Virus record (IMG/VR): IMGVR_UViG_3300030451_002003 | Location: 1 to 25,863 of that record | Reading direction: 5' to 3' (one strand) | Length of the DNA: 25,863 bases | Source of the DNA: a virus | Shown: positions 3 through 25,863 of the stretch, piece by piece | How the letters are laid out: each line of letters begins with the position of its first letter | How positions within the stretch are numbered: position 1 is the first letter of the stretch | Position numbers and translations under genes: made by a program | The notes under the pieces: generated by a model | The model's input: only the letters and a program-made list of their open reading frames with translations | The model's database searches: none | What the model was told of the DNA's origin: nothing

Positions 3-1757
3 CTTGCTTATCAGGATTATTGGGAGGAAGAGTTAAATAGGTGTATTAATGGTTATAAACCCCCTGGCGGAGAATGGATACCTGGTAATTATTACTGGTA
101 TTTAAATTACTACATGATTTTAGGTAATGATGGTAGTAATTCTAACCGTAAAACACTTATTTACCCTTGGTACAGGGATATGGATAAAGAATACTTTAAC
201 CTATTCCACACATGTAGGGAAGAAGGTAAGGGCATGATAGTTATTAAGGCTCGTGATAAGGGATTCTCTTACATGAACTCAGGTTTAGTAGCTCATGAGT
301 TTACTTTCTTTCCGCATTCCGAAGTAGGAATTGCGGCTGGACTAGGTGTTACGGCACACTCTTTCTTTGACAAAGTCAAAAAAGGGTTAATGAACCAACA
401 CGCTAATTTTCGGCACGGCTGGTTAAAGGATACGAAAGATGTGTTACGGGCAGGGTATAGACAGAAGAATGCTGAGGGCCGATGGGAGATAGGAGGCTAT
501 CAATCTGTAATACATTGTAGAACAATGGATGATCCAGAGGTATATAAAGGTGAGCGTTTATCAATAATGATATTTGAAGAGGCTGGTGAGTTTAAAAGAC
601 TTAAAAATGCATACATGTCATCAAAAGCATGTTTTATGGATGGTGCATTTCAGTATGGTGTGCCTGTAGTAGGTGGTACTGGTGGTGATATTGACGCAGC
701 ATCTGCTGATTTTATGGATATGTACTATAATGCAGAAGCATTTAATTTAATTCCTATGTTTATACCTGCATCTAGAGCATTACACGGATTTTTTAGTCCT
801 TCTACTGGTGTAGATGACGAAAAAAAGGCGTTTGAGTACATACAAACAGAAAGACAAAAAATATTAGATGGCGGTGGAGACAGTAAGGCATACAATTTGC
901 ATTTACAAAACTACCCCTTAACTGTACAGGAAGCTTTCCTAAAAACAAAAGGTTCTAGGTTTGATATAGCACTGCTTAATCAGCAAAGAGCTAGAGTTCA
1001 AACACTAGCAGATCCAGAACAACATATTACAACTGGAAATCTTGATTGGGTAATAGATGATGATGGATTAACTGATAAAGTTAAGTTTACGCCTCATCCG
1101 CATGGTCCATATAAAATATTACACCAGCCACAAACGCATTTATCTGGTTTAGATATTGGTGGTATTGACTCATATGATCAAGATGAGGCAGGAGCATCAG
1201 AATCTATGGGTTCTGCAATAATATTTAGAAGAATAGCTGACACTAATCAGCCATATAGGCTTCCTATAGCAGAATATACTGACAGACCTGAAACAGCAGA
1301 GCAATTTTATGAAGGTTGCTTAAAATTAGCTGTTTATTATAATTCTAAAATGTTAGTCGAGTATACAAAGATTGGTATATTAGATTATTTTTTAAGAAAC
1401 AGAGCTCAAAAGTATTTAAAAACAAAACCTAGGTCTGCACACTCACCTGGGACAAGAACTAGAAATAATTATGGTGTGCACATGAATAAACAAGTTAAAG
1501 CTTACATGGAGTCTTTAATGTATGACTATATTAAAGAAAGAGGTGATGAAATTTGGTTTATTGACCTGTTAGACGAGCTTTGTGATTGGGGTACACGCAA
1601 TACAGATAGGGCTATTGCCTTCGGTTTGTGTTTAATACATGAAAATGATAACTTTGCAATTGAAGTTAAGGACAGGGAAAAAGAAACAATAAAAGAAAGC
1701 GGATTTGTATATTATAAATACGATAGTAATGGAATACCAGTTAAACATACAAGATAA
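3..1757 (+). CDS. terL: Terminase large subunit (partial, 5' end outside window)
   Basis: ATP-driven motor and nuclease that packages phage DNA through the portal. The frame is open from base 3, so the first in-frame ATG (114) is internal and the true start lies upstream. An ATPase Walker A-like motif, ARDKGFS, is at bases 249-269; it is a deviant P-loop, as is common in terminases. A Walker B hydrophobic run ending in two Glu (IMIFEE) is at 564-581. The C-terminal RNase H-like nuclease shows the expected acidic residues: Asp codon 1152 (in GLDIGG), Glu codon 1359 (in LVEYTK) and Asp codon 1605 (in NTDRAIAFG). The stop overlaps the portal start by one base (TAATG), suggesting coupled translation. 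The position before portal and capsid genes fits. Confident in function; crAss-like affiliation is inferred from overall character. Confidence 0.93.
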   Translation, partial: LAYQDYWEEELNRCINGYKPPGGEWIPGNYYWYLNYYMILGNDGSNSNRKTLIYPWYRDMDKEYFNLFHTCREEGKGMIVIKARDKGFSYMNSGLVAHEFTFFPHSEVGIAAGLGVTAHSFFDKVKKGLMNQHANFRHGWLKDTKDVLRAGYRQKNAEGRWEIGGYQSVIHCRTMDDPEVYKGERLSIMIFEEAGEFKRLKNAYMSSKACFMDGAFQYGVPVVGGTGGDIDAASADFMDMYYNAEAFNLIPMFIPASRALHGFFSPSTGVDDEKKAFEYIQTERQKILDGGGDSKAYNLHLQNYPLTVQEAFLKTKGSRFDIALLNQQRARVQTLADPEQHITTGNLDWVIDDDGLTDKVKFTPHPHGPYKILHQPQTHLSGLDIGGIDSYDQDEAGASESMGSAIIFRRIADTNQPYRLPIAEYTDRPETAEQFYEGCLKLAVYYNSKMLVEYTKIGILDYFLRNRAQKYLKTKPRSAHSPGTRTRNNYGVHMNKQVKAYMESLMYDYIKERGDEIWFIDLLDELCDWGTRNTDRAIAFGLCLIHENDNFAIEVKDREKETIKESGFVYYKYDSNGIPVKHTR

Positions 1758-3934
1758 TGAGAAATTTTCCTAGTCAATTAATACCTGATTCTAAGAAAGA
1801 CAAAAAATGGTGCGAGCACATGCTCGATGCTATCGTATCGCACACAGACGCAGTTGATAGCCCAGAAAATAGGTATCGACTAAAAGATATAAGAAATTAC
1901 GACATATATAACGGTGATTTTAATCGTGATGATTATAAATACCTTACAGAGCAATATGGATACAATTATCCTGCTCGATTAGTAAATTACCCTATAGTAC
2001 AACCTAAAATAGACTTATTATTAGGTGAAGACTTACATAGACCTTTAGATACAAAAGTTGTAACAATAAATCAAGAAGCTATAAATAGAAAAGAAGACCA
2101 TAAAGTAACTATGGTTATGAATAAGCTACTTGAAGAAGTTAAAGAAGAAATGAAAAATTTAGGAATGGAAGTTAGGACTGAAGGCCAAGATATTCCATTA
2201 CCTGATGATATTGATACATTTATGCGTTACAACTATAGAGAATCTATAGAAGAAGCAGTTCAAGATGGATTAGAGTTTTTAGTAAATAGATATAAAATTA
2301 AAAACAAATTCAAAGAGGGCTTTAGGGATCTACTAATAACTGGTAAAGAATGCTATCGAGTTGAAATTAAAGATGGCGACCCACAGGTTAGGCGCGTAGA
2401 CCCAAGGTCTCTCTGTTATGACTTAACTAGTGAAACAGATGATTTAGGTGAGGCTAACTGGATAACAGAAGAAAGATTTTTATCTCCTAGCGATGTAATA
2501 GATGAGTTTGGTGAGCAATTAGATGACAAGCAAATTAAGCTTATAGAATCTATGTCTCAACAAAATAAAATAGATATGTTTTCTGAATACCGTAATTGGT
2601 ATGTAAGAGGAGAGTCTGGTGAGCTTAGAGTAAAAGTTGTACATGCTGAGTGGAGATCGCTTAGAAAAATACAATACAAAATAAGCCCTAACAAACATGA
2701 CAATGATAAGCCATTTAGAAAAATGGTTTCTGATAGATATAGAAAACGTAAAGGTGAAAAAGTTCGTAAGGTTGTTGTTGATGATATTTGGCAAGCTACA
2801 AAGATTGGTGGTTCGATTATGGTTAATTGTCAGCGAGTTCCTAATCAGATACGTTCTACAGACGATCCTAGTGCTGCTAATTTAAGCTATGTAGGTGTAA
2901 TAAGAAATCATACTACAGGTAATCCTGTATCTATGGTTGACTTACTTAAAAATGTACAAATGCTTTATAATATTACTATGTATCACATAGAGTTGTCTAT
3001 GGCTAGATCAGGTGGTAAAGCAGTTGTATATGATGTAGCACAAATGCCAGCAAATCTTGGAATGAATATGCAGGATATAATGTATCACATTAAAAATGAT
3101 GGTATTATACCTATTAACTCTAAAGATGAAGGGTTACAAGCGCAAACATTTAATCAGTTCCAGCAAATAGATTTTACGTTGTCTAATTCTGTTCAGCAAC
3201 TTATAAATTTAAAAATAATGCTAGAAGATATGGCTGGTCAAGTATCAGGTGTAACTAAGCAGCGTGAAGGACAGATTGAACAGTATGAACAAGTAGGTAA
3301 TCAAAAACGAGCTGTAGTGCAATCAGCAACTATTACTAGATCTTGGTTTTACTCGCATGACATGGTTAAGCAAGACGTGTTAATGCGTTGTGCTAATCTT
3401 ATGAAAATGTGTTGGTCTGAGGGTAAAAAGACTGCAACTGTATTTGGTGATGGAACATATAAGTTTATATCTATATTGCCAGATGTAGCATTAAATGATT
3501 ATGGTGTATTCTTGGGTGATGGTGGTAAAGATGAAGAAATGAAAGCTGCTGTATCTCAATTAGCGCAATCTGCACTACAATCTGGTCAAATAGATATGTT
3601 AGATGTAATTAGAATATTTAAATCTGATACATTAACAGAAGCAGAGCATATATTAGAGAGAGGTTTAGAGGCAGCTAAAGAAATGCAAGCTCAACAGCAA
3701 CAAGCTGCAATGGAGCAAGCACAAATGGAAGCTCAAGCTAAAGAAAAAGAATTACAAACAGAAGTTGAAATGAATCAACTTGATAATGAGACTAGAATTA
3801 AAGTTGCAGAAATACAACATCAGTCTAAATTAGAAACAGCAGAAATACTTTCTGATGACCAATATGGTACAAGAAAAGCTGATGCTGCGTTAAGACAAAT
3901 GGAAGGACAGCTTAAAGGTCAAGTTAAAAATTAA
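1757..3934 (+). CDS. Portal protein
   Basis: Predicted dodecameric ring at the capsid vertex through which DNA enters and leaves, and the docking site for TerL and the tail. The 725-residue length is in the range of crAss-like portals, which are larger than most. The N-terminal third has a portal-like stretch around residues 45-95 (RNYDIYNGDF, then LVNYPIVQPKIDLLLGE). The C-terminal 85 residues or so are Gln/Glu/Ala-rich and should form a long helix or coiled coil, as in portal barrel segments. The ATG shares one base with the terL stop. The assignment rests on position immediately after terL, length and sequence character. No obvious frameshift or truncation. Confidence 0.88.
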   Translation: MRNFPSQLIPDSKKDKKWCEHMLDAIVSHTDAVDSPENRYRLKDIRNYDIYNGDFNRDDYKYLTEQYGYNYPARLVNYPIVQPKIDLLLGEDLHRPLDTKVVTINQEAINRKEDHKVTMVMNKLLEEVKEEMKNLGMEVRTEGQDIPLPDDIDTFMRYNYRESIEEAVQDGLEFLVNRYKIKNKFKEGFRDLLITGKECYRVEIKDGDPQVRRVDPRSLCYDLTSETDDLGEANWITEERFLSPSDVIDEFGEQLDDKQIKLIESMSQQNKIDMFSEYRNWYVRGESGELRVKVVHAEWRSLRKIQYKISPNKHDNDKPFRKMVSDRYRKRKGEKVRKVVVDDIWQATKIGGSIMVNCQRVPNQIRSTDDPSAANLSYVGVIRNHTTGNPVSMVDLLKNVQMLYNITMYHIELSMARSGGKAVVYDVAQMPANLGMNMQDIMYHIKNDGIIPINSKDEGLQAQTFNQFQQIDFTLSNSVQQLINLKIMLEDMAGQVSGVTKQREGQIEQYEQVGNQKRAVVQSATITRSWFYSHDMVKQDVLMRCANLMKMCWSEGKKTATVFGDGTYKFISILPDVALNDYGVFLGDGGKDEEMKAAVSQLAQSALQSGQIDMLDVIRIFKSDTLTEAEHILERGLEAAKEMQAQQQQAAMEQAQMEAQAKEKELQTEVEMNQLDNETRIKVAEIQHQSKLETAEILSDDQYGTRKADAALRQMEGQLKGQVKN

Positions 3935-3957: not shown

Positions 3958-5004
3958 ATGGAAGAAACAATGGAAAAAAAAGAGACAATAAGTGAAGAAG
4001 TAAAGGAATTTAATCCTGAAGCCTTCGCTGGGCTTGACAACTTAGTAGAAAAAGTAGGTCAAGTTGATGAGCAAGAATCTGCCAAAGAAGAGCCTACGGC
4101 TCTGGTAGAGGAAACTGAAACAGAAACTGAAACAACTGAAACAACTGAAAATGTTATTGAACAAGTTGAAGAAGATGATGATTCAGATTTTGATTGGGGT
4201 GTAGAAGATTCTGAAGAACAAACTGAGCCTGAAGCAAAAGAAGAAGCTGAAGAAGACTGGGATTTTGAAGAAAAACCAGAGGCTACAGAAGAAACTACAG
4301 AAAAAACTACAGAATCCAATGAAGTAAATTGGGATGCAGTTGCAGAGCAGCTTGGACTAGAAGGCGCATCTAAAGAAGATATTGTAAAAGCTTTAAACTC
4401 TAAAAATGAGCCAGAAGTTCAAAATGATACAATATCAAAATACGAAGGATACCTTAAGCTAACAGATAGAGAACTTTTAGCGGCTGACATGAAAGCTACA
4501 GGTATGGATGAGTATGATGTTGATGACTCTTTAGATAGAATGGAAGATTCTGGAATGCTTAAGCACGAAGCTCTTAAGATTAGAAAGCAATTAAGAAATG
4601 CTATTCGATCTGAAAGAACTACAGTTAAGCAAAAAGAAGAATCTGCAGCTCAAGAAAAAATACAAGCCCAAGAGAATGCAAGAAAAGAATTGCAAGCTCA
4701 CTTAAAAGGCTTTAATAATTACCTTGGAGGCAAGGTAACAGTAGAACAAAGAAAAGATCTGTATAAATATATAACAACTGGGAATTTCAACGAAGACATT
4801 TATAAAACTCATGCCAATGTTGCGGAGGCTGCGTTTCTTTGGAAGAACAGAAAACAAATACAGAAAATGTTGAGGTCGCAAGGCTTCGAAGACGGTAAGG
4901 GTAGCGTATTAGATAACCTTACTAATAAAGGTGGTAGAGGAAACAGTAAACCTAAAAGAAAAACAGGAACTGGCTTTGATCCATCGGCATTTATGGGAGA
5001 ATAA
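3958..5004 (+). CDS. Acidic Glu/Thr-rich protein, candidate capsid assembly/scaffold protein
   Basis: A 348-residue protein between portal and major capsid genes, where phages commonly encode scaffolding or assembly factors. The first ~125 residues are extremely acidic and low in complexity, with Glu-Thr runs (about residues 52-64 and 108-119) and a DDDSDFDWG patch near residue 75; this part is probably disordered. The remainder is helical and charged, with a basic C-terminus ending in a short hydrophobic tail (FDPSAFMGE). Acidic, largely helical proteins of this kind can be removed from the mature head, but no protease site or scaffold domain is recognised. Start at 3958 follows an A-rich leader; a second in-frame ATG (residue 5) at 3970 is possible. 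It could instead be a minor virion protein. Confidence 0.6.
   Translation: MEETMEKKETISEEVKEFNPEAFAGLDNLVEKVGQVDEQESAKEEPTALVEETETETETTETTENVIEQVEEDDDSDFDWGVEDSEEQTEPEAKEEAEEDWDFEEKPEATEETTEKTTESNEVNWDAVAEQLGLEGASKEDIVKALNSKNEPEVQNDTISKYEGYLKLTDRELLAADMKATGMDEYDVDDSLDRMEDSGMLKHEALKIRKQLRNAIRSERTTVKQKEESAAQEKIQAQENARKELQAHLKGFNNYLGGKVTVEQRKDLYKYITTGNFNEDIYKTHANVAEAAFLWKNRKQIQKMLRSQGFEDGKGSVLDNLTNKGGRGNSKPKRKTGTGFDPSAFMGE
4111..4150 (+). repeat. Short tandem repeat encoding Glu-Thr run
   Basis: Imperfect tandem copies of the units GAAACT, GAAACA and ACTGAAACA encode a run of alternating Glu and Thr residues in the acidic protein. A related, more diverged EETTEKTTE-type stretch lies at about 4285-4314. 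The region is prone to slippage, so length variation between relatives would be expected. Confidence 0.75.
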
Positions 5005-5094: not shown

Positions 5095-6561
5095 ATGAAA
5101 ACAACAACAGGATCGTTTGGAACGGACACTCAGATGTCTAATTCCTTGGTAACTAACATGTTGAAGTACCCAGAAATTTCTAGTACTTTAATACAACAGT
5201 ACCCTCGTTACGCACTAACATACCTATTAGAAAGAACAGGTCGTTTTGCTGACGTAAAAATTTTAGGTGACAAATCTTTCGAGTGGAAAGTTTTAGGTCG
5301 CTCAAATCGTGCAATTACTGCACATACAGGTTATTCAATTGCTGCTGATACTAGTGCTGCAGAGATTGTATTCGTAGAAGCTGCTGCTGAAGGAGCTTTA
5401 TTATCTGTTCATGATGTAGTTATGGACTCTGCAGGTAATGTAGGTCAAGTAACTCACGCTTTAGCTGCTGATGCATCTACTGAAATTTCTGGTAATAAAC
5501 CAGCAGCTGTAACAACATCTGCTGCAAATTCTGCAACAGGTGGTTATGGTTATAAAATTAATTTTGCTAATGGACACGCTGCAATTTCAGTTTCTTCTGG
5601 TATTGGTGTTATTGGTACATCATTTGGTGAGGCTTCTTTAGGTACGTCTGTTTCTGAATACATGACTTATCCAGATACTTACAAAAACTGGTTAACTCTT
5701 AACAGACGTAAATTATCTATTTCTGGTTCAGCTTTAACTGATGTAACTTGGATTGAAAACAATGGATCTAAATTGTGGTACTTTACTGCTGAAAAATTGT
5801 TTACTGATGAATTTATGTATCAATTAGAGCTACAACGATGGTTTGGTAGAGCTAATGTTGCTGCAACTGATGCTGATGATTTCCCTGGAGACAGCGGATC
5901 AAAAGCAGCTGCTGATCACGGAATTATGGGTGATGGTATCCTTGCACAAATTGAAGGTACTATTAGTCAAACTTATGATATTAGTGATGGTCTTAGTGAA
6001 GACGATTTAGCATCTTTTATTGCTAAATTATCTCGCAATGCTCAATCTCCTGAAGGAAATGAGTATGTAGTATTTACTGGTACTGAAGGTAGATACCAAT
6101 TCCACAAAGCTATGAAAGGACTTACTGTAGGTGCAAATAATGCTACTGGTGGTTCTATGCAGTCTATGAAAACTGGATCTGATGTAGCTTTAGGTGTTAA
6201 CTACACATCATATAATGTTTTAGGTAGTAAATTAACTATTGCTTATTGCCCAGTATTTGATGACGTTAATGTTCATGGTTCATCTGCTGCTGGTCATGGT
6301 GGAACTATGTCTGGTAAAATGGTATTCTTAGACTTTTCGTCTGTAGATGGTGTACCTAATATTCAGTTAGTTGCTAAAGGTCATGATGGTCACAACCGTA
6401 ACTATGTTAAGAAATACATTCCTGGTATGGTTAACCCTTATGATCAACAATCAATGCTTGCTGCTAACGGTGATGACTCATTCACATGTCAAATCATGTC
6501 TGAATCTGGTATCATTGTTCGTAATCCATTATCTTGTGGTATTTTAGGAGCCACAGCTTAA
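5095..6561 (+). CDS. Major capsid protein
   Basis: Predicted HK97-fold shell protein of 488 residues, close to the usual size in crAss-like phages. It starts with a short polar arm (MKTTTGSFGTDTQMSN), followed by a helical segment (LLERTGRFADVKILG, about residues 43-57) and a core rich in Ala, Gly, Ser and Thr, typical of an abundant structural protein. The composition is more balanced and less charged than its neighbours. The gene is set apart by a 90-bp AT-rich gap upstream and a hairpin downstream, consistent with separate control of a highly expressed product. Its position downstream of the portal and acidic protein genes supports the call. No maturation cleavage site can be pinpointed. 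Confidence 0.85.
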   Translation: MKTTTGSFGTDTQMSNSLVTNMLKYPEISSTLIQQYPRYALTYLLERTGRFADVKILGDKSFEWKVLGRSNRAITAHTGYSIAADTSAAEIVFVEAAAEGALLSVHDVVMDSAGNVGQVTHALAADASTEISGNKPAAVTTSAANSATGGYGYKINFANGHAAISVSSGIGVIGTSFGEASLGTSVSEYMTYPDTYKNWLTLNRRKLSISGSALTDVTWIENNGSKLWYFTAEKLFTDEFMYQLELQRWFGRANVAATDADDFPGDSGSKAAADHGIMGDGILAQIEGTISQTYDISDGLSEDDLASFIAKLSRNAQSPEGNEYVVFTGTEGRYQFHKAMKGLTVGANNATGGSMQSMKTGSDVALGVNYTSYNVLGSKLTIAYCPVFDDVNVHGSSAAGHGGTMSGKMVFLDFSSVDGVPNIQLVAKGHDGHNRNYVKKYIPGMVNPYDQQSMLAANGDDSFTCQIMSESGIIVRNPLSCGILGATA

Positions 6562-9007: not shown

Positions 9008-9617
9008 CGTTAAAAGAATAATTGGAAATGTAGCTCGTAATTTAGGGCTTAATAATCCTTCAGAATATTTAGAATCATTTATAGAATGGGCTTTTGAAGC
9101 TGAACAAAAAATAGGTAGTTTTAATACTTTTTTAGAAAAAGAAGCTGATTTGACTGTAACTGGAAATAAGGCTTTATTACCTGCAGATTTAATAAAATTA
9201 ATAGACGTTAAAAATAGTAACGATGTTTTAATGGAGCCAACACAAAAAACATTTAAAGGTGATGCGTCAGGAGATAAGTATTGGATTGTTGGTAATTATA
9301 TACATTTTGTTAGTATATCAGACGGAACCGCTCATATAGCATATAAAGCTTTAGATACAGATTCTGATGGATTTCCTACAATTAAGCAAGGTCATGAAGA
9401 TGCTGTTGCTCAATACATTATGTGGAGACACAAATCTATAGAATATTATAACGGTAAAATTGCTAGATATATAGTTAAAGATTTAGAGCAAAGATGGTAT
9501 TGGTTGTGTGCTCAAGCAAGAGGAAATGATAACTTACCTTCTGAATCTGAAATGAGAAACATAGCAAAATATTGGAATACTTTAATACCAGAAAGAGAAA
9601 ATGGCGGAACAGTCTAA
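8997..9617 (+). CDS. Tail adaptor / tail tubular protein, P22 gp4-like type
   Basis: A 206-residue protein with the layout of head-tail adaptors. It has an N-terminal helical pair (about residues 1-45), a beta core with ALLPADLIKLIDV (55-67) and WIVGNYIHFVS (95-105), a Y-K-A-L-D-T-D-x-x-G-F-P-x-I segment (115-128), and C-terminal helices (EDAVAQYIMWRHKSIEYYNG, 133-152). Such a protein sits below the portal and connects the tail. It overlaps the upstream gene by 11 bases and the muzzle gene by 17, consistent with tightly coupled expression of proteins that assemble together. Assignment to the gp4-like group follows known crAss-like gene order. Confidence 0.75.
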   Translation: MQISVKRIIGNVARNLGLNNPSEYLESFIEWAFEAEQKIGSFNTFLEKEADLTVTGNKALLPADLIKLIDVKNSNDVLMEPTQKTFKGDASGDKYWIVGNYIHFVSISDGTAHIAYKALDTDSDGFPTIKQGHEDAVAQYIMWRHKSIEYYNGKIARYIVKDLEQRWYWLCAQARGNDNLPSESEMRNIAKYWNTLIPERENGGTV

Positions 9618-12600
9618 ACCTAATACTTTTGGTAAAGGTATGATGACGGATTTAGATCCTGGATACCAACCAAAAGACTCATACTTTACAGGACTAAACA
9701 TTAGGGTTATAACTAATGGAGAAAATTCTTATTCTTTAGAAAACATTCAAGCACCTAAAAGGGTGTATGATTTAGACGCAAAAAAAACAGATTCAGAATT
9801 TACTGTACCTATGGCGTTTTTAAGTAGTACTGATAGATATTTAATACATGGAGCTGTAGTTGTTGATGATTATATAATAGCGATAGAGTCTCAAAATTCT
9901 ACTGCCAGTACTAAAAATTGGAAAATAAGAAAATATGTAATTGATCAAAATGGAAATATATTAAATTCTAATGGATATTCTACTGTTGGTCCAGGTAGTT
10001 TATGGTCAGGTTACGACTTATTTAGTTCTAATGCAGGAGAAATAGAATTAGAATCTATAGTTGAAACAGAAACAATACATAGAATATATGCTACTGATGG
10101 TATAGGAGAATTGTTATCTATTAATGTCAAAGACTCAAATTTATCTAGTAAAACTATTACAGATTTTAAAGCATTTAAACCTAACATTATGGTTCAGGCT
10201 AATTTATCTGGATACAATGATGTAGGTGGTGGATTAAAATACGGATCTTATAGTTACACATATAGATTAGCATCAAGAGGTCAATCTAATTATTCAAATT
10301 GGGCTCCTATATGTAGGCCTATTAATGTAGTTAATGGTAGTTTATCTACAGGCGATAATCTTACAATAAAAGGAGAAACAAGTTCAGAAACATCTAACAA
10401 ATCTATAAAGCTTTCTATAACAGGAATATCAACTGAATACGAAGTAATTGAAATTGCAGCTATACATTATAGTAGTGAAAATGTTTCTACTATAGAAATT
10501 ATAGAAACAGGATCTATAAGCTCTTCTACTTATGAATTAGTTCATAGTGGATTTGAAACTACTACTGTTGTTTCTGGTGGAATAGCATCTGTAGTAATTA
10601 GTAATAAAACTTGGAATACTTGTAAAACACTTGCGCAAAAAGACAATAAATTGTTTGCAGGTAATTTAACAAGTACACCAATGAATATAAATATTAAGTC
10701 ATCACCTAGAGCAAGTGATGATGCAGAATCTTTGGTTAGTTATAAATTAAAGTCTTATAAAATTACTCCTAGCTCAAGTGGTGATACAGACTCTAATGAT
10801 TACAGCACTATAGTTTACTCTAGCGATAAATTTGAAACTCACTCTGAAGAAGCTAATCCACATAGACATCAAAATGGTAGTGCTGGACTTAAAATATATG
10901 ATCATATAAATATTGCTAACGATAAAAATCATTATAAATTTTTGGGAAAAAACTTTGGAAGCTCAATGAACCCAACATATTGTCTTGGAGCAGAAACTCC
11001 AGGTTTTAGTCATGATCCTAATGTTTATGGTTTTAGATTAACTTTTAGTCAAATAGGGTATAAGATTAGCGATTCAGCAAATCACACTACATATGCTGGT
11101 GCTACTGGCGGAGATAATAATGAAGAATACGAAGCAATACCATATAGTATTGGTGTAAATCAAAATAGATCTGAATTTGGTGGAGGAAAACCAGGTCCTC
11201 ATAATCCTGCTTGGGACTTTAAATACAGAAGCTTTAAAAGAGGTGAGTGTTATAGATTTGGTATAGTATTTTTTGATTTAAAAGGTGTTCCAGGTTTTGT
11301 TCATCATTTAGGTGATATAAAAATGCCTGAAGCAATGGATCAAAATAATCGACAATTAGCACCTCCTGGTAGTGGTGGTTCAGGTCTTCAAGACAATAGA
11401 AGTATATTAAGTAATGGAACTACATTAACTGATGATGATTTCATGATTAAAGGTTGGCAACCTTTTAGTCAAAAAAAGGGAAATCAAAATCATTATGGCT
11501 GGGCGTTGATACCAAAAATAGAAGTAAGATTACCTGATAGTATTACAAGTCAAATATCTGGGTATAAAATTGTAAGAGCTGAACTGCAAGATAATGATAA
11601 AACTATTATAACTCAAGGTGTTTTAAATCATTGCGTTGTTCATCATTCTTCTCAAGGTTTAAATTCTTTAAGAAGTAAAGCCTTACCAAAGCCGTGGCCT
11701 TATTCTGTTGTAGAATACGATGATGCTAGTTACACTAATGCTAACGGTAATCCTTATCAAATTCATGATAACGCATGGACTTTAGATACTCCAGATGTAA
11801 CTATAGGTGGTAAATCTTATAATTTTTCTGATGGTGGTTATGACATAAGAAATGTTTGCCCAATTATTATGGGTAATGAACATATGGATATAAACTCACT
11901 TACTTATGGTACGAGTTATAATTACAGCACATTAATTTGGGGTGGTGGAATAGTATTAAATGACGGTCTTGCAAATGCAAGCTATTCTGTTGGTAGTGGA
12001 AGTGTTAATATGTATAAAACAGCAGTTGGTTTTAGATACAGATGGATGACTAAAGAAGATTTAGGTCTTAGTACAGATGATGAAGATGCTTTTAATATAA
12101 CAGAATTAAAAGCGTCTACTGGTGTTGGTTTATTTATGACTTATCATGATATTGATTTTGGTAAAACTGTAGTAAATGGTGAGCAAGTAACTACATCTGA
12201 ATCTGGATTAAGTGAGGTTTTTGAAAATGTAATTCCAGAAAACACAAACTCAAATACAGGTACAGGACTATCAGCTTATTATGGTGAAGCAAGCATTATA
12301 GCTAGTCAGCGTCATAGAGCAGATTATAAAGGAAATGCTGTTACAACAATATTATTAAAATGTTCATCAACATCTCCTTCTGAAATAGAATATGAAGGCG
12401 CATACGATCATGTTGGTAGAGCTTTAGGTTATATTAATAATAGTGGGGGTAATGATTGGAATAATGGTAAACGTTATAATAATATTAACAGTAAATGGAT
12501 TTCTGAAATAGTTAGAGATACTAGTTCTGGTTTTGAACAATATGGTGGATATAATGATTCAGCTATAGAAAATACTAGATTTTATGATTGTAGTAATTAT

Positions 12601-14091
12601 CAAGATAAATCTGTAGCATTATTTGAAATTACTGGTGGTGATACTTTTTGTGATTATTATACATATAAAAATAGGTGGCCTAGCGGAGATACAGGAAGTC
12701 CAGGAGAACATGCAGATGCAAATACAACAGGTTTAGCTTATTATTACAATACAGCTGTGCCTTTAGAGTCTTCATACAACACGTCATTAAGATACGGAAC
12801 TTATTATGGTTCTTCAAAAATATTAACACAAGCAGGAGAAGATAATTATTCTTACAACACAGCTTATAATCAAGAAACTAATTTAGTTAGTTCTGTAACT
12901 AAGCCCTTGTATTGGGATGATAATAATATATTTAAAAATAAAATTGCTGCATCTAGAACTAAAATACCTGGAGAGCCATTTGATGCATGGACTCAATTTC
13001 CTGCAAATGATTTTATAGAGGTAAATTTACAGCAAGGTAAAATAACAGATTTAGTAAATTACAAAAATAATTTGTATGCAATACAAGATCAAGGTGTAGC
13101 TGCTTTATCTGTAAATCCTAGAGCTTTAATATCAGGCGAAGGTGCTGCGGCAGATATACAAATTGTTAGTGGTTCTGGCGCTGCAATAGAAAGATTTGAT
13201 TACATAACAAGTAAATATGGGTCGCAGCATTTTAATAAATCTATAATAACTCCTACAGGTTTTTATTTTTTAGATTCACAAAATAGTGAAATTATAAAAT
13301 TTAACGAGCAAGGTATAAACCCTTTATCTTTAAGTAATCAGTATAAAAGTTATATAACAAGTTTTACTCAAAATAAAAATATTCCCGTAAGCGTTAATAA
13401 CAATATTGGCAGTTTAACTCAAGGTATTTATTCTGGTTATGATAACGAATTTAGAGAATGTTATTTTACAGTAGTTGATTCTACAAATTCTCAAAATAGT
13501 TTTGTAATTTCTGATTTAGACGGAAAGCTTATTACAAAATTAGATTTAAGAGATAAAACTAGAGCTTCTAGTAATGGAGCAATATTTTTTAAAAAATACA
13601 TATCATATCAAAATAGATTTTACGGTATAGGTCATGAAGTTATTTCTGGAACTCAAACACAAATTAATGGAGATGTTTTATTAAATTCTACAGTTGGATA
13701 TAACAATGATGCTATATTTTTATTTAATAGTGGTGTTTATCAAAACTTTAATGTTGGGTTTGTTGTAAATGATAATGCTGCAATAAATAAAATTTTCGAT
13801 ACATCAGAAATAATAAGTGATGTTGCAAACACAACAGATAAATTTACATCTCACTCTATACAGGATTCAAATGGAATTAATATTACAGCTGGAAGTACAG
13901 AAGAAAGAATTAGAGAAGGTATTCATAGAGTTTATTTAAGAAATGAATCAGTTTCAAATAGAGCTAGAGGTAATTGGATAAAACATACTATATCGTACTA
14001 CCAATCTCTTAGTTCTGAATTAATTAATCCAGATGCTGACAAAAAATTCAATATATTTGCAGTAAACACAAGATATAGACAATCAAGATAA
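9601..14091 (+). CDS. Tail stabilization / muzzle protein
   Basis: At 1496 residues this is the largest complete gene in the window. Its opening (GKGMMTDLDPGYQPKDSYFTGLNIRV, residues about 12-37) matches the N-terminal signature of crAss-like tail stabilization (muzzle) proteins: G-M-x-x-D-L-D-P, then Y-x-x-x-x-N-I-R-V. Another typical stretch lies at about residues 1158-1230 (YAIQDQGVAALSVNPRAL, later GFYFLDSQNSEIIKF), resembling beta-propeller-like repeats with a conserved F-L-D. The rest is Ser/Thr/Asn/Tyr/Gly-rich beta sequence. It likely forms the distal part of the short tail that closes the DNA channel. It starts inside the adaptor gene and is followed four bases later by the next gene. 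Confidence 0.82.
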   Translation: MAEQSKPNTFGKGMMTDLDPGYQPKDSYFTGLNIRVITNGENSYSLENIQAPKRVYDLDAKKTDSEFTVPMAFLSSTDRYLIHGAVVVDDYIIAIESQNSTASTKNWKIRKYVIDQNGNILNSNGYSTVGPGSLWSGYDLFSSNAGEIELESIVETETIHRIYATDGIGELLSINVKDSNLSSKTITDFKAFKPNIMVQANLSGYNDVGGGLKYGSYSYTYRLASRGQSNYSNWAPICRPINVVNGSLSTGDNLTIKGETSSETSNKSIKLSITGISTEYEVIEIAAIHYSSENVSTIEIIETGSISSSTYELVHSGFETTTVVSGGIASVVISNKTWNTCKTLAQKDNKLFAGNLTSTPMNINIKSSPRASDDAESLVSYKLKSYKITPSSSGDTDSNDYSTIVYSSDKFETHSEEANPHRHQNGSAGLKIYDHINIANDKNHYKFLGKNFGSSMNPTYCLGAETPGFSHDPNVYGFRLTFSQIGYKISDSANHTTYAGATGGDNNEEYEAIPYSIGVNQNRSEFGGGKPGPHNPAWDFKYRSFKRGECYRFGIVFFDLKGVPGFVHHLGDIKMPEAMDQNNRQLAPPGSGGSGLQDNRSILSNGTTLTDDDFMIKGWQPFSQKKGNQNHYGWALIPKIEVRLPDSITSQISGYKIVRAELQDNDKTIITQGVLNHCVVHHSSQGLNSLRSKALPKPWPYSVVEYDDASYTNANGNPYQIHDNAWTLDTPDVTIGGKSYNFSDGGYDIRNVCPIIMGNEHMDINSLTYGTSYNYSTLIWGGGIVLNDGLANASYSVGSGSVNMYKTAVGFRYRWMTKEDLGLSTDDEDAFNITELKASTGVGLFMTYHDIDFGKTVVNGEQVTTSESGLSEVFENVIPENTNSNTGTGLSAYYGEASIIASQRHRADYKGNAVTTILLKCSSTSPSEIEYEGAYDHVGRALGYINNSGGNDWNNGKRYNNINSKWISEIVRDTSSGFEQYGGYNDSAIENTRFYDCSNYQDKSVALFEITGGDTFCDYYTYKNRWPSGDTGSPGEHADANTTGLAYYYNTAVPLESSYNTSLRYGTYYGSSKILTQAGEDNYSYNTAYNQETNLVSSVTKPLYWDDNNIFKNKIAASRTKIPGEPFDAWTQFPANDFIEVNLQQGKITDLVNYKNNLYAIQDQGVAALSVNPRALISGEGAAADIQIVSGSGAAIERFDYITSKYGSQHFNKSIITPTGFYFLDSQNSEIIKFNEQGINPLSLSNQYKSYITSFTQNKNIPVSVNNNIGSLTQGIYSGYDNEFRECYFTVVDSTNSQNSFVISDLDGKLITKLDLRDKTRASSNGAIFFKKYISYQNRFYGIGHEVISGTQTQINGDVLLNSTVGYNNDAIFLFNSGVYQNFNVGFVVNDNAAINKIFDTSEIISDVANTTDKFTSHSIQDSNGINITAGSTEERIREGIHRVYLRNESVSNRARGNWIKHTISYYQSLSSELINPDADKKFNIFAVNTRYRQSR

Positions 14092-19061: not shown

Positions 19062-22000
19062 ATGGCAGATTTAAACGATCTTATCAGCCAAGCAAGTAGC
19101 AATCAATCTGGTACAACAGGTAAAGCCAGTTTATTAGACTATGCTGATAAGCCTCAAGAAGTAGAACTAGGACAAGAAGAAGTTGGGCAAGACCCAATGT
19201 TATCACAACAAGATGTACAACAGATGTCACGGCAAGGTGCGGTGTCTGCTGTTGAACAACAAATAGATCCAGGAGTTGCTGGGTTATCACAAAGAGACCA
19301 ACAAGCTATTACAGATACAGGAGTAGATCCTGAATTAATATTCGAAGGTAACGCAGAGAAGTTTGGTAAAAGTTTAGTTGCAGGTACAGGTATTGTTGTT
19401 AACGATATAGGTAATATGATTGACTATGCTGCAATGACAATATTACCAGACGAGGTTACAAAATCAGATACATTTCTTAAGATTACAGAAAGACTACCAT
19501 CATTCCATAAGTGGGGTGAGTCAATGCAAAAGTGGGGTGAGATACATCAGTCTCCAGGTCTTGACGAGTTTACATTAGATGATATGTTTAAAATAGAGTT
19601 TTGGGCTACAGACGTAGCTAAGACTCTTCCTTATATGGCATCTATGATAGTGCCTGGTAAAATGGGTGTAAACGTTGCTACAGGCTTAATGAAAGCAGGT
19701 GCTCGTAGTGCAGCTAAACGAGGTATGTTTGGTTCTGCAAAACGATTAGTTAAAACTAGATCTGCTGCCGCAACAGCACAGGCTGCAGCAAAAGGTGGAT
19801 CTAAAGCAGTTGCTGGTGCAGAAGCTGCGTTAGGGGGTGAAGGTTTAATGGGAGCGTTAGCTACACAAACTGCAGCAGGTGAAGTTGGACTTTCAAGTAT
19901 GGGTTCAGGTATCGCTGCATTTTTAGGCTCAGGTGGCGCAACTACTGCTGTTATTGGTGCAGGTCTTGCAGGTGATGTTTACAATAGAGCTTTAGATATG
20001 GGCCTTACAGAAGAAGAAGCTCAAGAAGCAGCGCATGGTACGTTTATAGATAACTCAAAATGGTTTGCATTAAACGGATTATCTTGGGGTGTGCAGTTTG
20101 GAGGTTTGTCTGGTAGAGCATTTAAGCAGTTTAATAAAATGCGTGGTGGTGCAGAATCAGCAAAAGCTATACAAAAAACATTTGGTCAAAGATTAATGCA
20201 GCATGCTAGTAGAGGTGCTGCTGCAGGTACATTTGAAGGAACAGAAGAAATGTTCCAAGAAACATACGAAGAATGGATACAACAAAAAAATCTTGCAGAA
20301 GTTCAAGGTAAAGATTTTGTTTCATATACAGATTTTTTAACGTCAGAAGAAAACAAAAAAACATTAGGTGTTTCTTTTGCTGCTGGTTTCCTTATGGGGG
20401 GTCGTGGTGGATTTATGGATAGCGTTGCAGAAAACGGTAGACGTATAACTAATAAAAGAATTTCTATAGATGACGATATTAATTCTTACGAAAACATGAG
20501 TGAAGCTCAGCGTAAAGTAAGAACTAATGAAATTATTGAAGCAGCTGTAAGAGAAGATCAAGTAGACGGCCTTAACGGTATGTTAGATAAATTACAATCT
20601 GCTGGTAAGATAAGCGCAGAAGAAAGAGCAGAGTACGACAATATTATAATGGAGTATTCTAAGATTGCCGCAGAATTACCTTTCCAAGAAAAACTAACAG
20701 AAGTTGGTCAGCAAGCATTATTTAATATTAAAGTTGCAGAAGCTCAATCTAAAAAGTCTTTACAAAACTTAGAAGTTCTTAAAAACAAAAATATAGCTGA
20801 AGCTAATAACAATTTAGAAGGCGAAGCTTTAACTAATGAGCTTGCTAAAATTGAAGCACAACACAAAATGAATGTTGATGCTGTTAATAAATCAATAGCA
20901 GAAGGTAAACAATCTATTGCTAAGTTATTAGCAGCTAAAAAATATACAAGCGAAGGTAAAAAAGCAGATACTAAAAGACTTGAAGAAATTAAAAAGTTTG
21001 AAGCGTCTGAAGAATATAATGATTTAAATGATGCACAAAAAGCTGATCTTAATTCTGAAAAGTCAAACTTAGAGCAAAAGCTTAAAGAAGATTCTTATGC
21101 TATAGAAGAAGCTGATGCAGTTGCTGATCAGATGACAGAAGAAGAGTATGAGCAATTTACAAAAGAAGGTGCAGTAGAAAAAGCAGAAAAACAAAAACAA
21201 CAAGCAGAAGATGTTGTTGATAAAGTTGTTGATAAAACAGAGGAAACTGCTGATACTGTGGTATCTAAGGCTAAGTCTTTTGCTGGTAGAGCAGTTGATT
21301 TTGTAAAGCAAAAGTTTGCGGATGTACAAAAAGGTAGAGAGTTTAGAAAAGCTATGCGACCTTTTGATGCGCAAATACAAGAGTTGCAAGAACAAGGCAA
21401 AACAACTGAAGAAATATTAGAAGCTATTAAGCCTAATATAGAATTAGAAAACATTACTGACGAAGACATTACGTCTTACATTAATACTACTACTGGTCAA
21501 GTAGATGTTGAAGCAAAAAATGCAGGACCATCAGGTACAGGCGCAACTGAAGAAAAAGAAATAGAAGGTGTTACAGATGAAGAGGTTTTTGCTGAAATAA
21601 GAAGAAGACGTGAGGAAGCTGGCAAAAAAGGTAAAGGATCTGGTCTTGAAGGTGCAACAACTCAGGAAGAGATAGACGCTGTAAGAGAAGAATTAATTAA
21701 AGCTAAAGCAGATGAAAAATCAACAGCAGAAAACGTTGCAACAGAAGAAGCAGCAGAAAGCGAAGAACAAACAGGAGAGGCGCAAACACAGCCAAGCGAT
21801 ACAAAAACTAAAGAAAAGTCTGAAGTAGATGAAGATATAACTTTTGCGGAAAGAGTTAGAAAGACAGCAGATAAAATTGCTAAAGACCTTTCTAAAAAAG
21901 CATATAGAATTAAAAAGAAAGCTACTGCAGAAAACATAAAAGGTTTATTTAAAGAAGGTTTTGGTAAAGTGCCTAAAATGAAAACTGGTGTTGAAAGTAA

Positions 22001-25000
22001 ACAAACAGTTTTACAATATTATGCATCTTTAAATCCTGTATTAGAATCTGCTATTATAGGTGCAGCATCTAAAAAGTTTCCTAATAAACAACTTTTAATT
22101 CTTAGAGAAGTTATTGATGAACATGGATCTGAAGTTGCAGGTATGGCTCTTGGTTCTGCTGTACAAGTACAGTCTGGACAAGATGTTGGTATAAAAATAA
22201 TGCACGAATATGGTCACGTCTACTATGGAATGATGAAAGATAATCCATCGTTTAAACGTGGTGTTGCTAAAATAATTAACTCTAAAATATTTAGAGATAC
22301 TAAATCTTTGTATTCTGAAGAATTACTTTATAACTTAAAAGGTGCAGACGGACAGAATGTACAGTTAAGAGGTGATGAAATATTTGCATCTGCTATGAGT
22401 AATAAGTCTATGTTTTTAGAAGAAATGCAACAAGACTTAGACGCATTTAACGAAGCACAAGCTGCAAATGACTATGAAACAGCTAGAGCAATTTTTGATA
22501 AGTTTTTAAATAAACTACAAGAAGATGGTGCTATAGAAATACTACCTGATAATCAACAAGAAAACATTATAGAAGAAGCGTTTGTTACATCACTTGCTCC
22601 ACAAATGGCTGGACAGTTAAATGTAATGTTTGATAAATCTAATGACGTAGTACAATACGAAGGTTTCTTAAAAAGATTAAAAAGTAGAGTAGCTAAAATG
22701 ATTACGCCTAGCGATGCTAAAGAAATTCTTAAAAACGTTGATCGTAAGTTTGAGAATATGTCTTTAGAAGAAATAGGTAATGAAATTATTAATGATATTT
22801 CTACTGGTGTAAACGGAGGAAAGTTTAAAAGTGGTAAAGCTAAATACATGAAGTTTGGTAAGCTTTCTAAACAAGTTGCTCCTGTAGCATCTATAGAAAT
22901 AAATAAGATGTTATTATCTACAGAAAACCTACCATTTGAAACTATGGTAGATAGAGTTGTAGACAATATATCTAATGAGTTGCAAGATCCAAATATTAAA
23001 GAGCAAATTAAAGACGAAGTTGCTTTACGTTTAGCATCTGAAATAAATACAAGAGCAGGTAATACATTAGATCCTGATGGAGTTAAATCAAGCGGTGTAA
23101 GCAAGGTTTACGAAGAGGCTGGATATGACACAGCAAAAGTAGAAGAAGAGACCGATGAAGACTCTTATATTGATCCTGAAGATACAATGGAGAAAGAAGA
23201 AGAGATTGGTATTAATATTACATCAGACGAAAATGCTAGACAGGCAGCAATGCAAAACTCATCATCTGAGTTTATGAAAGCATTAATGATGATTGCTAAT
23301 CCGCAAGGACAAAACAGACAGTATGAAAAAACAAACTTAGAAGCTGCTGTTTTTAATTTAGCTAAAACACATAGAAACAATGTAGGAGCGTTTATTAAAG
23401 CAATGAATGCATCTAACGATCCTCATATTGTAAAAGCATTAGAGATAATGAATAAATATATGGAGCCGCTAGAAGTTATGCATGTGCAAAGAGAGTTCCA
23501 TAAAAACTTTAGTAATAAACATATGGAAAGTATTACTAACACTATTATAAAAGGTGATGGTAATATTGTAGAAGCAGAATCTTTAGCGTCTTCTGAGGAA
23601 TCTAAAATAAAGTCTATAACTAATTCTGCTAATAAAGTTTTCTTTGGTAAAAGCGCTAACAAAGTTAGACAAGATGTTGCTAATAGATTAGTTGCTGCTA
23701 AACAAAAAGTAGATAATGGTGGTAAAATAACAACAAGAGAATCTTTAATGATACTAGCGCCAATATTACACATGTCAGATAGTTCTATGTATTTAGACAT
23801 GAATGCATTAGTTGGTTTAAGAATACCAGTAAAAGGTAAGCAATACAGTATAGAGCAGTTTGTAGAAAACTTTGTTAAAAGTCCTTTGTTTAATAAGCAT
23901 ATTAAAAATGGACAGATAACTATTAAGAATCCACACATGAGTTCTTTAATAGAAAACATGGTTGTAAAGTCTAGAGGCAAAAACATGATAAAGACTGTAA
24001 GTAATGTTAATGGTCGTAAAACTATGACGCTTAACATGAATAGTCATTTATTAAACTCTAAAGAGACAATTGAAAAAATGGCATCTACTGAAGAAGGTAG
24101 ACAGGAGTTGTTAGAAAAATATCCTGGCAATCCATTTATAAAAATGGTTGTTGCTTTAGGTCAGCAAGGTTTAGAATCTGAAGCTTTTAAATTGTCAATA
24201 GATGGTGGTACAGTATCATTAACAGGTTCTAAAAGTAAAGCTGTAGCTTATCAAAATAAAACTAAAGAAGATATTTTATTTGGTGATTTAGAATCATTTA
24301 TTTCTTCTTACGATAAAGGTAAGCCTGGTAGTTCTAGAACTTATTATTCTCAGCCTGTAAGTGTATTTTCTAACTCTAAAAGAAGATACAACATACAAGC
24401 ACCTATGATTACTACTGAAAAACAAAAGCAAAAAGTTTTAGAAGAAATTAAATCTAATGGTTTAGATAAACAAACCTATGAAGATGGAAGTTCTGTTTTA
24501 GGTATAAAAATAACAGGTAAAAAAGGCACATATAAAGTTGATCTTACAGAACAAACAGAAGCTCTTAAAAGTTTTATAGAAAACAATCCAGGAGTTTTAA
24601 AAGACAATCCTTTGTTATCACAAATTGCTACTGTAGACGAACTAGGTAATGTTGTTTTTTCTAAAGAAGGTTTAAAAATATTAGAAGATTTTAATTTTAA
24701 CTCTATTGTAAATTCTACATATGCACAAAAATTATTTGTAGGTGAACACACTCAAGCAAAAAGTCAATCTGATTTTGTTAAAAGAGCTACAGGAGCTATA
24801 GCAAGACACGATGGTTCTCTTAGAGGTGTTGCAATAGAGCCTCTTATTATTAAAGATATAGAGTCTGAAGCAGGTAATGAAACTGATGCAGCTTCTTATA
24901 TATTACCTGAAGATGTTCCTTTTCTACAAGATAAAGTAGGACCAAGAATGGGTCAGGTTTTAAAGTTTGTTTATTACGGAAACGATAAAAGAGGTAATAA

Positions 25001-25863
25001 TGCAAATGAAGCATTAGAAAATGAAGACATTTATTTTAAAACAGTTGTTACAGTTTTGCATCCAGAAAACATCGGAGAATCTGAAGTTCTTCAAAATATT
25101 GCAGATAAACTTAGAGCTAGAAGAAAAAAGAATGGTTATAGTGAATCTTTAAATATTGCTGTGTTTGAATCTGGAGCTAAAAAAATTCCTGCAATACACA
25201 ACGGAGAAAAAGCTATAGATCATGACGCAGAGTTTGGTCCTGATAGTGAAGCGCAAAAACAATTAGATGCAGCTTACATGGTGGGCGATAAATTAGTTGG
25301 TATTGATGGTGCTAATATGGGTATACAATTACCTATGGATAAAGATAAAAAAACAACTAACCTTCCTACACAACACATAGGAAATACAAACAATGATTTA
25401 TCTGCAGAAGAAGCTTTACAAGTTGACGAAATACAAGCATTAGAGGGTGAAATATTTGATGCTAACTTAGAAGAGGCTGTTGGTGCTATGATTGCTGACA
25501 ATCAAAAAAGCACTCCTGAATCTAGAAGAGCAGTTAAAGAAATGTTAGGTAGAGTTGTTGGTAGAAATGCTATACGCTCTGTCTCTAATGGTACTGCAAA
25601 AATGATTGCAGCATCAAATCCAGATGTTAGTTTAAATTTACCAGGATTGCAAAAATATTTTAACAATGCTATTAGATCATTAATTAAAAAATCATCTAAG
25701 ATTATTACTAATGGTACTATAGGTATACAGTCTACATCTGTAGGTAGAGGCTTAAAAGCATATACACAAGGAACAAGATTTAATGCTAATGGTGAAAGAC
25801 GTAAAGTTACGTTAGCAGCAGAGGCTATTGTTCCTGCATCTTTGAAAGGTAAATATTTAGCTA
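19062..25863 (+). CDS. Giant multidomain virion protein (partial): zincin metallopeptidase plus RNA-polymerase-like C-terminal region
   Basis: One frame runs from ATG 19062 to the window edge with no stop: 2267 complete codons, 3' end outside. An Asp/Gln-rich start is followed by Gly/Ala-rich hydrophobic segments (about residues 188-209, 276-306, 435-450) flanking a Glu-rich EGTEEMFQETYEEW stretch (392-405), then a charged, probably coiled-coil zone (about 550-830). A zincin motif HEYGH is at 1048-1052, with candidate third metal ligands Glu1106 (GDEIFASA) or Glu1171/1172 (IIEEAF). An acidic linker follows (about 1360-1385). From about residue 1880 the sequence (VKRATG, DAASYI, FESGAKK, GIQLP...PTQ) resembles the region preceding the DxDxD loop in giant phage RNA-polymerase-like proteins. 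Probably a packaged polyvalent protein of a crAss-like virion. The ATG follows an A-rich leader. The metallopeptidase call is fairly sure; the polymerase call is tentative. Confidence 0.85.
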   Translation, partial: MADLNDLISQASSNQSGTTGKASLLDYADKPQEVELGQEEVGQDPMLSQQDVQQMSRQGAVSAVEQQIDPGVAGLSQRDQQAITDTGVDPELIFEGNAEKFGKSLVAGTGIVVNDIGNMIDYAAMTILPDEVTKSDTFLKITERLPSFHKWGESMQKWGEIHQSPGLDEFTLDDMFKIEFWATDVAKTLPYMASMIVPGKMGVNVATGLMKAGARSAAKRGMFGSAKRLVKTRSAAATAQAAAKGGSKAVAGAEAALGGEGLMGALATQTAAGEVGLSSMGSGIAAFLGSGGATTAVIGAGLAGDVYNRALDMGLTEEEAQEAAHGTFIDNSKWFALNGLSWGVQFGGLSGRAFKQFNKMRGGAESAKAIQKTFGQRLMQHASRGAAAGTFEGTEEMFQETYEEWIQQKNLAEVQGKDFVSYTDFLTSEENKKTLGVSFAAGFLMGGRGGFMDSVAENGRRITNKRISIDDDINSYENMSEAQRKVRTNEIIEAAVREDQVDGLNGMLDKLQSAGKISAEERAEYDNIIMEYSKIAAELPFQEKLTEVGQQALFNIKVAEAQSKKSLQNLEVLKNKNIAEANNNLEGEALTNELAKIEAQHKMNVDAVNKSIAEGKQSIAKLLAAKKYTSEGKKADTKRLEEIKKFEASEEYNDLNDAQKADLNSEKSNLEQKLKEDSYAIEEADAVADQMTEEEYEQFTKEGAVEKAEKQKQQAEDVVDKVVDKTEETADTVVSKAKSFAGRAVDFVKQKFADVQKGREFRKAMRPFDAQIQELQEQGKTTEEILEAIKPNIELENITDEDITSYINTTTGQVDVEAKNAGPSGTGATEEKEIEGVTDEEVFAEIRRRREEAGKKGKGSGLEGATTQEEIDAVREELIKAKADEKSTAENVATEEAAESEEQTGEAQTQPSDTKTKEKSEVDEDITFAERVRKTADKIAKDLSKKAYRIKKKATAENIKGLFKEGFGKVPKMKTGVESKQTVLQYYASLNPVLESAIIGAASKKFPNKQLLILREVIDEHGSEVAGMALGSAVQVQSGQDVGIKIMHEYGHVYYGMMKDNPSFKRGVAKIINSKIFRDTKSLYSEELLYNLKGADGQNVQLRGDEIFASAMSNKSMFLEEMQQDLDAFNEAQAANDYETARAIFDKFLNKLQEDGAIEILPDNQQENIIEEAFVTSLAPQMAGQLNVMFDKSNDVVQYEGFLKRLKSRVAKMITPSDAKEILKNVDRKFENMSLEEIGNEIINDISTGVNGGKFKSGKAKYMKFGKLSKQVAPVASIEINKMLLSTENLPFETMVDRVVDNISNELQDPNIKEQIKDEVALRLASEINTRAGNTLDPDGVKSSGVSKVYEEAGYDTAKVEEETDEDSYIDPEDTMEKEEEIGINITSDENARQAAMQNSSSEFMKALMMIANPQGQNRQYEKTNLEAAVFNLAKTHRNNVGAFIKAMNASNDPHIVKALEIMNKYMEPLEVMHVQREFHKNFSNKHMESITNTIIKGDGNIVEAESLASSEESKIKSITNSANKVFFGKSANKVRQDVANRLVAAKQKVDNGGKITTRESLMILAPILHMSDSSMYLDMNALVGLRIPVKGKQYSIEQFVENFVKSPLFNKHIKNGQITIKNPHMSSLIENMVVKSRGKNMIKTVSNVNGRKTMTLNMNSHLLNSKETIEKMASTEEGRQELLEKYPGNPFIKMVVALGQQGLESEAFKLSIDGGTVSLTGSKSKAVAYQNKTKEDILFGDLESFISSYDKGKPGSSRTYYSQPVSVFSNSKRRYNIQAPMITTEKQKQKVLEEIKSNGLDKQTYEDGSSVLGIKITGKKGTYKVDLTEQTEALKSFIENNPGVLKDNPLLSQIATVDELGNVVFSKEGLKILEDFNFNSIVNSTYAQKLFVGEHTQAKSQSDFVKRATGAIARHDGSLRGVAIEPLIIKDIESEAGNETDAASYILPEDVPFLQDKVGPRMGQVLKFVYYGNDKRGNNANEALENEDIYFKTVVTVLHPENIGESEVLQNIADKLRARRKKNGYSESLNIAVFESGAKKIPAIHNGEKAIDHDAEFGPDSEAQKQLDAAYMVGDKLVGIDGANMGIQLPMDKDKKTTNLPTQHIGNTNNDLSAEEALQVDEIQALEGEIFDANLEEAVGAMIADNQKSTPESRRAVKEMLGRVVGRNAIRSVSNGTAKMIAASNPDVSLNLPGLQKYFNNAIRSLIKKSSKIITNGTIGIQSTSVGRGLKAYTQGTRFNANGERRKVTLAAEAIVPASLKGKYLA
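22203..22217 (+). other. Zincin HExxH metal-binding motif codons (HEYGH)
   Basis: Codons for His-Glu-Tyr-Gly-His, preceded by a hydrophobic strand (GIKIM) and followed by an aromatic helix (VYYGMM), the expected setting of a zinc metallopeptidase active-site helix. The two His would bind zinc and Glu1049 would act as general base. The fitting downstream Glu-rich helices favour a gluzincin-type third ligand. Confidence 0.75.
24720..25862 (+). other. C-terminal RNA-polymerase-like region of the giant protein (tentative)
   Basis: Residues 1887-2267 carry a spaced series: SDFVKRATGAI (about 1902-1912), ETDAASYILPED (1940-1951), AVFESGAKKI (2033-2042), MGIQLPM (2086-2092) and LPTQ (2101-2104), then a beta-rich segment ending in EAIVPASLKGKY at the edge. 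I recall a similar order in giant proteins of Bacteroidota phages that carry a DFDxD loop shortly after. No DxDxD loop is present inside the window, so the assignment depends on the adjacent sequence. Confidence 0.4.

Follow-up and report, generated by a model that had tools for sequence, protein, structure and literature searches.

A giant gene of a distant crAss-like phage predicted to join a virion RNA polymerase region, a probable zincin and a gp49-type module on one chain

Among the proteins packaged by crassviruses are three giant ones related to transcription, gp47, gp49 and gp50, which were found in the virions of crAss001 and are thought to be ejected in a partly unfolded state (PMC6235969, PMC10172136). 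The virion polymerase of phi14:2 transcribes early genes (PMC10136315), and phi14:2 and crAss001 are the only phages of this kind for which virion packaging and early transcription are known (PMC10172136, PMC10136315, PMC6235969). Giant crassvirus polymerases of up to ~6,000 aa have already been mentioned (PMC10136315). The virion polymerases of N4-like phages are almost always fused to a zincin-like domain, and such zincins have been proposed to process multidomain chains (PMC5512222). Similarly, the tape-measure polymerase of P23-45 is fused to a metallopeptidase domain (PMC10770324).

The window analyzed here is the entire virus record IMGVR_UViG_3300030451_002003 (25,863 bases), and its last gene, the subject of this study, is therefore cut off by the contig end (Table 1). 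Crassvirus-type capsid, portal, terminase and muzzle genes, the structural block that characterizes the Crassvirales, are all present in the window. Among the matches listed, the terminase large subunit (TerL) was at most ~30% identical to those of named phages and 32% identical to that of the contig carrying locus L041, indicating no close relation to a named Crassvirales family by this measure, and it was 60-95% identical inside its own group of environmental contigs. As judged from sequence, the source phage is a distant crAss-like lineage, in agreement with an earlier sequence-only reading of the window that had called it a crAss-like phage. A scan of genome contigs returned only two Intestiviridae-like contigs and no clue to the host. 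Following the muzzle gene are ORFs of 184, 832 and 631 aa and then the giant gene. Sequence comparison of the 832- and 631-aa genes with the cargo proteins C1 and C2, whose places they occupy, gave no relation, and ORFs similar in size to the 631-aa gene were found upstream of the giant gene in relatives. The N-terminus of the 832-aa protein (GTWNKNPGNIKGYRD...) resembles by eye the start of a phage structural lysozyme or transglycosylase; family searches with this protein gave no match.

From its ATG, the giant frame runs through 2,267 codons to the window's final base without a stop, as the sequence-only reading had noted. The same stretch contains 193 and 325 stops in the other two plus-strand frames and 51-212 in the three minus-strand frames, and substitutions between the window and its relatives L014, L015 and L018 were about twice as frequent at third codon positions (0.46-0.59) as at second positions (0.19-0.30), which together argue that the frame is a gene. 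Besides the open-ended frame, the ORF list shows only antisense ORFs in this stretch, consistent with the earlier remark that closed ORFs in this region are antisense shadows; those beneath the giant gene reach at most 204 aa (e.g., 23423-24037 on the minus strand). One reverse frame under the gene has just 51 stops in 2,266 codons, which most likely mirrors codon usage. Two relatives, L002/L014 and L003/L015, continue to a stop at 3,922 and 3,916 aa, respectively, and are 65% and 63% identical to the window protein over its whole length. From these relatives, we estimate the full length of the window gene at ~3,900-3,950 codons, of which ~58% is visible. A stop or frameshift just past the window, with no further domain, had been named as an outcome that would overturn the reading of a giant multi-activity protein; the contig itself ends here, and none occurs at the matching place in the relatives. 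Membrane-like segments and a coiled coil had also been suggested. In the visible part, the highest score over any 19 residues on the Kyte-Doolittle scale was 1.26, below the usual 1.6 for a transmembrane segment, and membrane-like segments are not supported. The charged, proline-poor composition around residues 450-900, taken by itself, fits a coiled coil.

Table 1. Features of the window, with residue numbers of the giant protein in parentheses
Feature	Position	Strand	Basis
Terminase large subunit (5' end open)	3..1757	+	phrog_6681 E 1e-92
Portal protein	1757..3934	+	phrog_6547 E 2e-115
Major capsid protein, Crassvirus type	5095..6561	+	PF23898 Crass_capsid E 8e-34
Muzzle protein, Crassvirus type	9601..14091	+	PF25731 crAss_MUZ E 3e-113
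832-aa protein, place of crassvirus cargo protein C1	14653..17151	+	position only
631-aa protein, place of crassvirus cargo protein C2	17156..19051	+	position only
Giant gene, 5' 2,267 codons	19062..25863, ATG at 19062	+	3' end outside window
N-terminal conserved domain (~92-202), relative of gp47-type N-terminus	19335..19667	+	hhalign
Coiled-coil-like stretch (~450-900), charged, proline-poor	20409..21761	+	composition only
Probable gluzincin domain (~985-1245)	22014..22796	+	invariant H1048, E1049, H1052, E1172
HEYGH zinc-site motif (1048-1052)	22203..22217	+	sequence
E1172 (IIEEAF), candidate third zinc ligand	22575..22577	+	invariant in clade
RNA polymerase region, 5' part (~1878-2267)	24693..25863	+	hhalign E 6e-9

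Single-sequence searches of the window protein for polymerase likeness gave no match, and the RNA-polymerase-like tail that the sequence-only reading had proposed became visible only with family profiles. The ~390 codons of this region that lie in the window, used as a family profile that included the window row, matched crassvirus RNA polymerases by hhalign at E 6e-9, and residues 1864-2590 of L014 matched a Steigviridae polymerase set that included phi14:2 gp66 at E 3e-20; reversed controls gave E 0.2 or worse. When an independent crassvirus RNA polymerase profile was run by hmmsearch, 14 of the 16 rows were detected, at E 4e-15 to 2e-5, and no reversed or shuffled decoy was. The two rows missing from its output were the window fragment and L018, although L018 has the motif. 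The catalytic motif of the polymerase, DHDGD at residue 2372 of L014, should lie ~119 codons beyond the window end in the window gene, and DxDGD is present in all members of the window clade that are long enough to reach its position. Pfam, PHROGs and phmmer searches against PDB gave nothing useful, either with the window protein or with its full relatives, and profile searches of PDB sequences returned only the designed repeat protein 8v2d with A6 and nothing convincing with A5. When compared with named phages by tblastn, the window protein had no match, and the polymerase region of a relative had 14 weak matches (E 0.02-7), 13 of them to phages whose taxonomy or name identifies them as crassviruses and one to Dulem virus 41. 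For the structure predicted for the polymerase region, the single PDB match below E 0.001 was 6vr4 (E 5.6e-5, probability 0.98), and the top named BFVD matches were crAss-like phage proteins. Because this AlphaFold2 model is poor (pLDDT 57, pTM 0.33, TM-score to 6vr4 0.15), the similarity to 6vr4 should be read as local only. By these matches, the giant chain is predicted to include a crassvirus two-barrel virion RNA polymerase region of the gp50/gp66 type. This is the match to double-psi beta-barrel polymerases that had been proposed as a test, and with the 6vr4 match it upholds a giant virion-type RNA polymerase chain, its packaging being deduced from related phages.

The sequence-only reading had also placed a zincin on this chain. 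Residues H1048, E1049, H1052 and E1172 are invariant in the 12 of 12 clade members that cover them, at pairwise identities of 18-66%, and the expected number of HExxH motifs in the shuffled window protein was 0.045. A comparable EE-x-F pattern follows HExxH in other crassviruses. HEYGH and E1172 together form a gluzincin pattern, and the region is a probable, not proven, metallopeptidase, since its profile relation to other crassvirus zincins reached only E 0.015 and the fold was not confirmed. The model of the region was weak (pLDDT 55), no convincing Pfam or PDB match was obtained and no known protease fold was recovered, and one member matched Peptidase_M54 at only E 0.083. Scanning for the zincin region gave no loci beyond the two relatives already known, and a scan with the two-sequence alignment gave uninformative patterns. 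The motif part of the earlier claim holds, and the zincin fold stays provisional. HExxH was not found in the upstream proteins of phi14:2 (gp078) and cr111, and therefore a zincin site in that protein is not common to all crassviruses. In phage cr271_1 (L013:8888-10837), an HExxH protein is encoded upstream of the polymerase and has an ADP-ribosyltransferase domain at its end (ART-PolyVal PF18760, E 1.2e-18); the zincin region of the window clade gave no ART-PolyVal match. With an RNA polymerase region and an HExxH domain, provisionally a zincin, encoded beside virion genes, the chain corresponds to a polyvalent protein as defined by Iyer et al. 2017.

A scan for the polymerase motif yielded 30 loci. 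HExxH (~970-1108) and DxDGD (~2250-2470) were found on one chain in ten complete open frames of 3,644-3,993 aa; the other records of this clade were a truncated one, in which both motifs are present, and an identical copy. At Intestiviridae-type loci, HExxH lies on the upstream gene and the polymerase has its own gene, 3.7-4.6 thousand codons long. The zincin and polymerase motifs are again on one frame in a third group (L036, L041/L042, L043). In L041, whose group looks separate from the window clade, HExxH is at 1622 and DFDID at 3056, and the zincin end of L041/L036 shows a clear relation to crAss001 gp47 (E 1e-16). Azobacteroides phage ProJPt-Bp1 (L009:13017-23462) encodes a 3,481-aa chain without HExxH, in which DNDGD (~2371-2375) is close in position to the motif of the window clade and likewise ends in DGD. 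As had been postulated for a metallopeptidase, an HExxH signature is on the same chain as the polymerase region, but the pairing is less isolated than was supposed, with HExxH on the separate gene just upstream in other crassviruses and with the N4-like and P23-45 cases.

Relatedness to the neighboring crassvirus genes extends to both ends of the chain. The N-terminal domain gave a shorter gp47-type match, at E 1.1e-5 to the Intestiviridae set, 7e-4 to the gp47 set and 1.8e-3 to the L041 set, with reversed controls at E 0.13 or above. Near the C-terminus, residues 3153-3831 of L014 (~680) matched gp49 at E 1e-15 over ~750 profile positions. All hhalign E-values are per single comparison, and as ~60 comparisons were made in total, those for the polymerase and gp49 hold up because they lie far beyond this number, the N-terminal 1e-5 less so. 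The predicted chain is therefore colinear with three neighboring crassvirus genes (gp47-type, RNA polymerase and gp49). Dulem virus 41 has three consecutive genes in the same order of N-terminus, zincin, polymerase and gp49, and cr111 has separate genes in this order, but without HExxH. We read the giant gene as a putative fusion of three genes, with fusion or splitting both conceivable for the ancestral state, and since in most of the crassviruses compared the zincin is encoded upstream by a gene of its own, it would represent a gene-fusion variant of the known virion transcription module.

The gene is likely to code for a virion transcription cargo of a crAss-like phage that combines all parts in one protein. 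In order, the chain would consist of a gp47-type part (N-terminal domain and C-terminal zincin), a two-barrel RNA polymerase and a gp49-type part. From phi14:2 and crAss001, we infer packaging, ejection and early transcription: the giant chain would be made late alongside the structural genes, packed into the virion and ejected with the DNA via the portal and muzzle into a presumed Bacteroidota host, where it would refold and transcribe early genes. The zincin, which follows the N-terminal module and precedes the polymerase, might then cut the chain, allowing the ejection and polymerase modules to separate.

Self-processing by the zincin is the leading reading because of its place in the chain, the N4-like and P23-45 precedents and the published proposals, although by such analogy it can be advanced only tentatively. 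Its fullest version, in which the zincin would cut the ~3,900-residue chain in the host into ejection module, polymerase and gp49-type partner, is possible but calls for somewhat more caution; if true, one self-cleaving chain replaces three separately packaged proteins. We rank as its main rival the same three-in-one chain with a zincin that, once injected, targets a host protein as a takeover effector. The junction of the cr271 HExxH protein with ART-PolyVal, a predicted effector enzyme, agrees with such a role, as does the proposal that polyvalent phage proteins carry host-directed enzymes (PMC5512222), whereas the fixed place of the zincin between N-terminal module and polymerase over 12 members, and the suggestion in the same study that such zincins process multidomain chains, speak against it and leave it possible but doubtful. 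It is unlikely that the zincin site has become inactive or purely structural, as a relic on what is otherwise just a giant RNA polymerase: its four residues are invariant down to 18-24% pairwise identity, even though the phi14:2 and cr111 counterparts lack HExxH and no known protease fold emerged.

Two further explanations dispute the chain itself. If the protein were purely structural, serving in ejection or as a tape measure, with no polymerase and an HExxH that arose by chance, the empty single-sequence searches and the low-confidence polymerase model would be expected, but this is strongly disfavored by the RNA polymerase profile matches, for which reversed and decoy controls were clean, by 6vr4 as the sole PDB match below the threshold and by the occurrence of DxDGD in every member reaching that far. 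An artificial loss of the stops between separate genes, through assembly or sequencing, might be suspected because the window record is a short fragment; the one-frame arrangement in ten complete relatives, each from a different metagenome record, together with the truncated record and the identical copy, refutes this for the clade.

In the searchable open-access literature, we found no described zincin-polymerase fusion in crassviruses and no chain with all three modules. Giant crassvirus polymerases were already known, as was a zincin-like annotation, ZnMc_tr, on a separate Rudgehvirus gene. The joining of three proteins in the same order argues that they work jointly, in about one copy each, and links both gp49 and the zincin of gp47 with the polymerase. 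The idea that a protease drives the maturation of injected polymerases becomes testable on a single protein.

The polymerase region resembles those of phi14:2 gp66 (KC821624 gp077; PDB 6vr4) and crAss001 gp50 in its predicted two-barrel, single-chain type, in the DxDxD motif that relatives of the window have in a RIP...GSD context and in its place after the muzzle and cargo genes, those two being virion proteins. They stand alone, at 2,180 and 2,412 aa, whereas the region here lies inside a ~3,900-aa chain, and their motif is DFDID or DFDVD as compared to DHDGD in the relatives of the window. Similar to crAss001 gp47 and the Intestiviridae upstream protein, the chain has the N-terminal domain and HExxH...EE-x-F on one protein with the polymerase downstream; in those phages, however, this protein is a separate gene product of ~2,000-2,750 aa, and its zincin is only weakly related to that of the window clade (E 0.015). 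The separate gp47-type gene of Rudgehvirus jaberico is annotated ZnMc_tr. Likewise, gp49 of crAss001 is a separate gene in Steigviridae and part of one chain in the relatives of the window.

Flavobacterium phage Fpv3 gp32, a virion protein of 4,287 aa (L046:33939-46802), also has an RNA polymerase-like motif and HExxH on one giant chain. In this protein, to which the clade profile gave no match, HExxH follows the polymerase motif near the C-terminus (HEVIH at 4065, with a weak SprT-like match at E 0.0025, versus DYDID at 3116), in contrast to the window clade, in which the zincin precedes the polymerase. The N4 polymerase is of an unrelated, T7-like single-subunit type. What the N4-like and P23-45 systems share with the window chain is the fusion, in one giant protein, of a virion polymerase and a metallopeptidase domain, a probable one in the window chain (PMC5512222, PMC10770324), and unlike the window chain, the P23-45 polymerase is fused to the tail tape measure. 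After N4-like phages and P23-45, the window clade would be the third kind of phage to have a polymerase with a probable protease beside it.
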